Virus record (IMG/VR): IMGVR_UViG_3300024326_000030
Span: 1-26,137 of that record
Source of the DNA: a virus
Strand: one strand, 5' to 3'
Length of the DNA stretch: 26,137 nucleotides
The notes beneath the pieces are model-generated. The model was not told the DNA's origin and did no database searches. It saw nothing but the letters and a program-made list of their open reading frames with translations. Below, in pieces: positions 23,737 to 26,137 of the stretch. How positions within the stretch are numbered: the stretch's first letter is position 1; each line of letters begins with the position of its first letter. Position numbers and translations under genes: made by a program.

Positions 23737-23843
23737 AATCGGAATTGTATAACCCACAGCCTGGTTTTCATTAGTGCTTGTTTTTGTGTTGTCACCCCTT
23801 TGAAATCTATCGGTAGTTACATTGTAAACACAACCTAAAGCAA

Positions 23844-23942
23844 CCTAGTGCCTACCTATGATCTACCTAGTGCCTACCTACTGCCTACCTATGATCTACC
23901 TATTGCCTACCTACTGCCTACCTATGATCTACCTATTGCCTA
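23844..23942. repeat. nine tandem 11-bp units in 33-bp higher-order repeats
   Basis: Units from 23844, each 11 bp: cctagtgccta, cctatgatcta, cctagtgccta, cctactgccta, cctatgatcta, cctattgccta, cctactgccta, cctatgatcta, cctattgccta. The order shows a 33-bp trimer repeated from 23866. The period is close to one helical turn and is not a multiple of 3, fitting a protein-binding iteron array rather than a coding repeat. Confidence 0.92.
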
Positions 23943-23944
23943 CC

Positions 23945-24902: not shown

Positions 24903-25208
24903 ATGATTATGAAAAAACAACTAAAGACCAAAAAGCAAAGGGCATTTGATAAAGCCCAAGTGACCAAGCTAGCAAAGGAACAGGCCGTGCCCGCTCTTAC
25001 CGTATTGCACAACATCCACGAAAGCCTGCGGGATTGTGATGGTGACTGGCGATACATTAACCTAGGAACACTCATGGAGCTTCTATCGTATCCGAAAGGA
25101 CGCTTGCACCTTGCCTTGGATGAAATGAAAAAAGACTATGTTATTAGTGAAGGCTACGAGTACGGCGCAACGAATGTTGAATACTACCAGAAGGAGGAAA
25201 CGAAATGA
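24903..25208 (+). CDS. small hypothetical protein, possible winged-helix type
   Basis: 101 residues from 24903, or 99 from the in-frame ATG at 24909. The N-terminus is very basic (MKKQLKTKKQRAFDKAQV), and the remainder (HNIHESLRDCDGDWRYINLG, TLMELLSYPKGRLHLALDEM, KKDYVISEGYEYG) has a helix-helix-strand layout that could be a winged-helix DNA-binding fold. That is an impression, not a family match. The end overlaps the next gene as ATGA and carries that gene's Shine-Dalgarno. If it binds DNA, the nearby repeats would be natural targets. Confidence 0.6.
   Translation: MIMKKQLKTKKQRAFDKAQVTKLAKEQAVPALTVLHNIHESLRDCDGDWRYINLGTLMELLSYPKGRLHLALDEMKKDYVISEGYEYGATNVEYYQKEETK
25192..25197 (+). promoter_or_regulatory. 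Shine-Dalgarno AGGAGG, the only strong one in the window
   Basis: AGGAGG lies 7 bases before the ATG at 25205, inside the 3' end of the upstream gene. The other starts here lack a comparable purine-rich site. Confidence 0.85.
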
Positions 25209-25597
25209 CCACCTCACAAAATCGAGACATCATTGATCACATGCTTTCAACTCTTGAGACAATGACAGAATGCGATCACGCTTCCGACTTGCATCATTAT
25301 CTTTGCAATGAAGATTACTTTATCGTTGGCACCTTTCGCGCTCGCCAGTGGATCGGGGATGAAGCCTTTTCGATTATTGAAAAGATCAAAGAATATGAAG
25401 AGTCCAATTTCGGAGAGGTCACCACTGATTTCTCCGAGCCTGAAAAGGTAGCCAACATGTATTGTTACATGAAAGGGGAGGAAATCCTCCAACACGCAAA
25501 CACCTTGCAAGGCAAATGGGATGGAGCTTTAAACCGCCAAGATCTTCAAGCTATCGGTGAGGAGATTGACGCAATACCCGCTCACACGTTAGCGTAA
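25205..25597 (+). CDS. conserved-looking phage protein of unknown function
   Basis: 130 residues. The core (DLHHYLCNEDYFIVGTFRAR, then QWIGDEAFSIIEKIKEYEES, then NFGEVTTDFSEPEKVANMYC and YMKGEEIL) resembles a family of small proteins in phages and bacterial mobile elements whose function I do not know. It is acidic and helical with no membrane segment. It is the only gene here with a strong Shine-Dalgarno. It overlaps the upstream gene as ATGA and the downstream peptide as TAATG, so three small genes are coupled. The different start signal hints at a separate origin or higher expression. Confidence 0.75.
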   Translation: MTTSQNRDIIDHMLSTLETMTECDHASDLHHYLCNEDYFIVGTFRARQWIGDEAFSIIEKIKEYEESNFGEVTTDFSEPEKVANMYCYMKGEEILQHANTLQGKWDGALNRQDLQAIGEEIDAIPAHTLA

Positions 25598-25708: not shown

Positions 25709-25743
25709 AAGAGCACCTTGGATCGTCCTTGGTGCTCTTTTTT
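25709..25743 (+). terminator. strong intrinsic terminator before the integrase
   Basis: AAGAGCACC (25709-25717) pairs perfectly with GGTGCTCTT (25731-25739), with an inner GG/CC pair in the loop, and a run of T's at 25737-25743. It separates the small-gene operon from the integrase transcript. Confidence 0.9.
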
Positions 25744-25776
25744 GTTACCATCGCCACCCTAAAACCTGGAAATCCT

Positions 25777-25968
25777 ATCGTTGGGGCAAAAAACATCTTT
25801 ACATGATGAAAGTTTTCGTCTAATCGTTGGACATGGCAAACATACAAGACCTATTTGAAGTTACCTTTATCAATCGTTGGGCCGGTAAGGCTCGGGAGGA
25901 GGTAGAAAGTCGGAACATTAAATTCTGGCTTAAGATGTTACCCAAGACCACAAGGGGGTTATCGTTGG
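25777..25968. repeat. four ATCGTTGG direct repeats around the integrase start
   Basis: Exact 8-base copies at 25777-25784, 25823-25830, 25873-25880 and 25961-25968, all in the same orientation. Two are upstream of the gene and two inside it in different reading frames, so protein conservation does not explain them. No other copy was noticed. They may be arm-type recombinase sites or operators. Confidence 0.75.
25798..25824 (+). promoter_or_regulatory. possible promoter for the integrase
   Basis: TTTACA (25798-25803) and TCTAAT (25819-25824) each match the sigma-70 consensus at five of six bases, but the 15-base spacer is short. A start near 25831 would leave almost no leader before ATG 25833. 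The -10 overlaps one ATCGTTGG copy. Confidence 0.35.
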
Positions 25969-26137
25969 GCGTAATCGACAAGGTGATCCTTAGCGAGGTC
26001 AAGAAGGGTAACAAACCTTCCACCATCAACAGCAAGCTACAGACCTTGAAGACCACCCTGGATTTCACACGGGAGCGAGGGATGCATGACGTTGGGTTCA
26101 AAGTTCCACGCCTAAAGCAACCCAGTGACGCCCGGAT
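25833..26137 (+). CDS. tyrosine recombinase/integrase, 3' partial (N-terminal domain)
   Basis: 101 residues plus part of a codon, open to the window end. It begins MANIQDLFEVTFINRWAGKA and contains KFWLKMLPKTTRGLSLGV and NKPSTINSKLQTLKTTLDF, followed by ARGMHDV-like sequence (TRERGMHDVGFKVPRL). This matches the SAM-like core-binding N-terminal domain of phage integrases: a helix with a STINSKLQTLKTTL pattern and a following basic segment. The catalytic Arg-His-Arg-Tyr domain is outside the window. The gene follows a terminator and has its own possible promoter. In T7-like phages with integrases, this gene typically heads the early region next to RNA polymerase. Confidence 0.7.
   Translation, partial: MANIQDLFEVTFINRWAGKAREEVESRNIKFWLKMLPKTTRGLSLGVIDKVILSEVKKGNKPSTINSKLQTLKTTLDFTRERGMHDVGFKVPRLKQPSDAR

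Follow-up and report, generated by a model that had tools for sequence, protein, structure and literature searches.

Oriented direct repeats in the integrase gene of a clade of T7-like phages are under selection that protein sequence does not explain

We report that a short word, ATCGTTGG, recurs in a single orientation at the tyrosine integrase gene (int) of a clade of T7-like phages, that it is almost confined to this gene, and that it is under selection which the protein sequence does not explain. The DNA analysed was the 26,137-base IMG/VR virus record of one such phage, here called the window, together with loci from its relatives. The best reading of these observations, to which we give an even chance, is that the copies are asymmetric operators, arrayed in one orientation, through which int is controlled.

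Results

Searching the whole window, we found ATCGTTGG four times within 192 bases on the plus strand, at 25777-25784, 25823-25830, 25873-25880 and 25961-25968, exactly where the original prediction had placed it, and not once on the minus strand. A fifth plus-strand copy lies at 25322-25329. Dinucleotide shuffles of the whole window held 0.68 copies on average and at most 3, none of them reaching 5; the repeats are confirmed as real, and chance is excluded as their source. The full word is longer, about 10 bp with a consensus of about wATCGTTGGGC, and the copy at 25322 is probably due to chance: it agrees with the extended word at 8 of 10 positions, and the one relative that shares it is the sister contig L003, whose integrase is 100% identical over the 101 residues encoded in the window.

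The window contains the 5' part of int on the plus strand (25833-26137), from an ATG at 25833 to the contig end, which cuts the gene. Upstream, we recognise a putative promoter on the same strand (25798-25826), consisting of TTTACA (25798-25803), a 17-nt spacer and TAATCG (25821-25826); this layout is kept in three clades even though the letters of the spacer differ, and it was not reported by a strict sigma-70 scan. Copy 1 (ATCGTTGGGG, 25777-25786, plus strand, offset -56 from the ATG) lies upstream of the putative -35 box. Copy 2 (ATCGTTGGAC, 25823-25832, plus strand) ends at the integrase ATG and, as had been predicted for one of the copies, would overlap the -10 hexamer. Because of this arrangement, we expect transcription to start at or near the ATG. 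Copies 3 and 4, both ATCGTTGGGC and both on the plus strand, are intragenic (25873-25882, offset +40, and 25961-25970, offset +128) and are indeed read in different frames, the former through the codons N-R-W-A and the latter through S-L-G.

Further upstream, a terminator-like hairpin followed by a T run occupies 25709-25745 on the plus strand (-18.8 kcal/mol, z-score -4.2), its loop being too long for the terminator rule of the strict scan. The absence of a Shine-Dalgarno sequence at int is uninformative as a sign of a leaderless gene, since such a sequence is missing from almost every gene of this phage and leaders are A-rich (window 1339-23516), a feature that may hint at the host group. 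Two other elements of the window deserve mention. One, in the stretch that separates the amidase gene from the early genes (23843-23944), is a tandem array with an 11-bp unit and a 33-bp higher period (97% match) that resembles the short repeats beside the T7 terminal repeat; the physical genome end may lie near it, and the contig may cross a concatemer or terminal-repeat junction. Upstream of int, at 24903-25208, a second small and fast-changing protein is encoded, with relatives down to 21-33% identity at the same place; read from the sequence, with no family match, it may be of the winged-helix type.

The arrangement of the copies is conserved. We compared 33 related phage loci. The peptide seeds used to collect them lie outside the +40 and +413 copies, so that the conservation of these two is not an artefact of collection. 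Relative to the integrase gene, the copies occupy fixed offsets: -62 or -56, 10 nt before the ATG, +40, +128, +413, and +453 or +617. The +413 copy is found in all related loci and the +453 copy in clades A and C, while clade B lacks the latter and has a copy at +617 instead, an exchange that fits site turnover, as expected. Copy 1 is present in seven clade A loci, at -56 or -62, and has been shortened by a deletion in some others; copy 2 occurs in clades A, B and C and, where present, always 10 nt before the ATG; at the position of copy 4, clade B has TTCGTTGGGC and clade C has no copy. The spacing between copies follows no helical phasing. In L003, which continues past the end of the window contig, further copies lie at +413, +453 and +1059.

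The closest annotated record is AP013544, the uncultured phage MedDCM-OCT-S45-C18 (Autographiviridae, Ayaqvirus), with 91.7% identity over 43% of the query. Sites with at most one mismatch number seven in this complete genome of 40.6 kb; all are at int, from -56 to +874, and none is in antisense; TCGTTGGGC occurs in it four times, always within int, against an expectation of 0.19. In the viral collection, two close copies of the word were found in 29 contigs, 20 of which belong to this int clade while the other 9 encode no such integrase, and on this basis we rejected the word as a general viral motif. A scan with TAATCGTTGGGCATG matched mostly contigs that do not belong to the clade, which is what chance predicts for a word of 15 bases. 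The motif follows the integrase clade: integrases of the motif-bearing set are at least 73% identical, and the word is absent from the integrase clade at 46-50% identity. Within int, then, the copies keep the same offsets in the relatives, and elsewhere they are no more frequent than chance predicts; neither an abundance of copies elsewhere nor a loss of spacing, the outcomes that would have spoken against the original prediction, was found.

Downstream of int, the gene order in L003 is int (267 aa from the ATG), a 100-aa ORF, a winged-helix protein, a 54-aa ORF and the phage RNA polymerase. The interval between int and the RNA polymerase gene has 9 sense copies and no antisense copy in 26 loci, with none in clade B. 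Three unrelated accessory genes in this interval carry one sense copy each in some relatives; in L008, L017 and L003, these interchangeable genes lie between int and the winged-helix gene, which is MarR-like, from +804 to about +1213 of int, and the copy is ATCGTTGG. In the RNA polymerase gene, a copy at about codon 45 (NCGTTGGGCC) is retained in close relatives only and may reflect plain ancestry. Another conserved ATCGTTGG, about 6 kb downstream, was discarded as a codon run (GIVGLE) in a helicase-like gene.

Conservation of this kind could in principle come from the protein, and residues such as R15 and W16 are conserved in the integrase at large. We looked at synonymous positions in a codon alignment of 31 integrases, considering the four- and six-fold degenerate amino acids conserved in more than 90% of the sequences. 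Only five codons are fully invariant, and all fall in the repeats: CGT and GCC in the +40 copy, and TCG, TTG and GGC in the +413 copy. On a tree of the same 31 sequences, these copies required 1 (+40) and 0 (+413) parsimony changes per 11 nt, where the median is 24, and no other windows of int are lower. The six-fold codons of Arg, Ser and Leu are invariant at these places only, and the same word is read in three frames (NRWA, SLG and IVG), stands 5' of the gene and appears in unrelated genes. Since the synonymous sites do not vary and three reading frames cross the word, selection acts at the level of the nucleic acid, and protein constraint alone is insufficient; for the +40 and +413 copies, codon invariance and the parsimony minima refute it. 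That protein constraint together with codon preference could account for the copies is hardly credible.

Selection at the nucleotide level alone cannot separate DNA from RNA, and every copy is in sense, as would be the case for a repeated target in the int mRNA of a small RNA or an RNA-binding protein. Against such a target, two copies would lie 5' of the expected transcript start, behind the terminator-like hairpin, AP013544 has no antisense copy within one mismatch, and the word is no more accessible than the rest of the mRNA, its predicted accessibility showing nothing special in comparison with other parts. We consider an RNA target very unlikely, and favour a role at the DNA level because the -56/-62 copy and the promoter copy would lie upstream of the transcript.

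At the DNA level, the original prediction had offered arm-type integrase sites as one option, and short non-palindromic direct repeats that adjoin an integrase gene, and whose presence follows the integrase clade, would suit arm-type or accessory sites of an attP spanning the 5' part of int. The integrase itself speaks against it. It is catalytically complete for a tyrosine recombinase (R-K-H/R-H-Y), with R135, K163, R218/H219, H241 and Y250 invariant in the clade and a match to PF00589 (E 3e-20). In alignment, however, it lacks about 60 N-terminal residues that are present in other temperate T7-like integrases, those of LUZ100, CRP-804, HTVC200P, BB8 and Pasto, and the structural model, of low confidence in its C-terminal part, starts at residue 4 with a bundle of four helices such as core-binding domains typically have. 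Alignment and model thus indicate an integrase with no N-terminal arm-binding domain.

The layout of the sites points the same way. They are spread over 500-930 bp of mostly coding DNA, with no core found between them for the sites to flank, and no inverted half-site partner of the kind that a core-type site would have rises above background (best 3-6 of 11 at 6-8 bp spacing). No attP or tRNA fragment near int came out of Rfam, of T-loop patterns or of DNA searches in 1,149 genomes (the classes of an Emcibacteraceae, a Vibrio and a Kaistella genome), a weak negative, as none of these genomes is one in which the query must match. A prophage scan of genome contigs gave only integrases about 30% identical over most of their length, and consequently no attL or attR was obtained. 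The suggestion of arm-type sites has accordingly fared poorly, and we regard it as quite unlikely.

Discussion

If the copies are operators, they would be asymmetric direct-repeat sites of the above consensus for one sequence-specific DNA-binding protein, arrayed in one orientation over int in this clade of marine temperate T7-like phages. Binding at copy 2, which overlaps the putative -10 box and reaches the start codon, would block initiation of int transcription, and the intragenic copies, when bound, could assist by cooperative binding or by halting RNA polymerase within int, on its way toward the phage RNA polymerase gene. Control by the array might perhaps also extend to the early operon that leads up to the phage RNA polymerase. 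One odd observation argues against a simple promoter operator, namely that in L004, L006, L008, L011 and L022 the promoter copy is degenerate or lost while the +40 and +413 copies are kept. The negative sigma-70 scan, the copy-free interval downstream of int in clade B and the unphased spacing also count against the operator reading. The repeats had also been suggested to be autoregulatory operators; the operator part of this suggestion stands as the best reading, given the copy at the putative -10 box and start codon and the selection beyond protein, and autoregulation by the integrase itself is plausible.

The integrase is the first candidate for the binder, as a correlation in the sequences suggests: the motif follows the integrase clade, being present where integrases are at least 73% identical and absent at 46-50%. 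Foldseek matches of the integrase include the Tn1549 integrase, lambda Int (residues 75-356), XerA and the phi3T repressor SroF, which has the same fold. An integrase acting as its own repressor is for us the likeliest binder of the word, a tentative choice held at well below even chances. A further-reaching version is that the arm-less but catalytically complete integrase doubles as a lysogeny repressor. It would bind singly along an oriented array that its own gene contains and keep transcription from reaching the gene of the phage RNA polymerase, one coding sequence thus being both gene and operator array; this we consider unlikely. A host protein or another phage protein might instead be what binds the word.

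Among phage proteins, another candidate is the MarR-like winged-helix protein (L003 6108-6410), whose gene lies between int and that of the RNA polymerase. It has a MarR fold, its gene is present in most relatives, and its homologues include the MarR proteins of other temperate T7-like phages, which have been proposed to govern lysogeny (PMC10134795). Its recognition helix, however, varies strongly (SRESIQVA, TPEAIRVA, SQQNCMVT, TRATAYGA) while the word is constant, and for this reason we place it behind the integrase. MarR proteins, moreover, are usually dimers on palindromes, and the word is asymmetric. Operators for this protein are in our estimation quite improbable, and we give the same low probability to sites for a conserved host protein through which the phage would sense the state of its host. 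A host protein would account for a constant site next to fast-changing phage regulators, but the copies are found at int only, and we know of no bacterial regulator with this word as its site.

The array bears on how marine T7-like phages equipped with an integrase decide between lysis and integration. T7-like cyanophages integrate but have yielded no stable lysogens (PMC8776855), and the MarR model of LUZ100 is a hypothesis (PMC10134795). For one clade, the frozen and oriented array at int offers a concrete sequence, in the oligonucleotide form AATCGTTGGGC, with which to fish for the regulator. It is also a clear case of what would be a regulatory array kept within coding sequence in three reading frames.

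The repeats are not a general trait of temperate T7-like int genes, an idea that we rejected as no over-represented repeat was found in ten other such int regions. As in LUZ100, pelagiphages and roseophages (PMC10134795), int and a MarR-like gene lie directly upstream of the phage RNA polymerase gene, although the MarR-like gene is downstream of int here and upstream of it in those phages; LUZ100 and S28-C10 have a tRNA-Leu beside int, and there is none here. The self-repressed intS of KplE1 (PMC2951348) would be similar, binding sites overlapping the int promoter there and a putative site overlapping a putative promoter here. In KplE1 the sites belong to attL, beside a tRNA, whereas here no att site was found and the sites run deep into the gene.

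Closer in form are the stoperators of Cluster A mycobacteriophages (L5, TipsytheTRex; PMC9283540), which are likewise short asymmetric sites in the same orientation, located at the promoter and along transcribed DNA; all int copies in the related loci and in AP013544 are in sense, oriented with transcription as stoperators are. Stoperators differ in being 13 bp long, more than 20 in number, spread genome-wide in short intergenic gaps and bound by a known monomeric HTH repressor (PMC9283540), which halts elongation, as opposed to 4-7 sites of about 10 bp concentrated in one gene, and in AP013544 confined to int, with a candidate binder only. In the Bacillus phage SP-beta, a repeated element (SPBRE) is read by a protein of the tyrosine recombinase fold, MrpR (YopR) (PMC10516654), and SroF of phi3T is among the Foldseek matches of our integrase. 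MrpR, however, has lost catalysis, and its sites are intergenic and scattered across a large prophage (PMC10516654); the integrase studied here keeps all catalytic residues, most of the sites fall within the gene that encodes it, and the elements are not homologous.

We assign the array to none of the stoperator, SPBRE and intS types, because it is not spread over the genome like the first two, no att site was found to tie it to the third, and its binder is only a candidate. By analogy, it would work most like an oriented operator array, and each of its elements has a precedent: self-repressed integrase genes (PMC2951348), a recombinase-fold repressor acting on a repeat (PMC10516654) and oriented asymmetric stoperators (PMC9283540).
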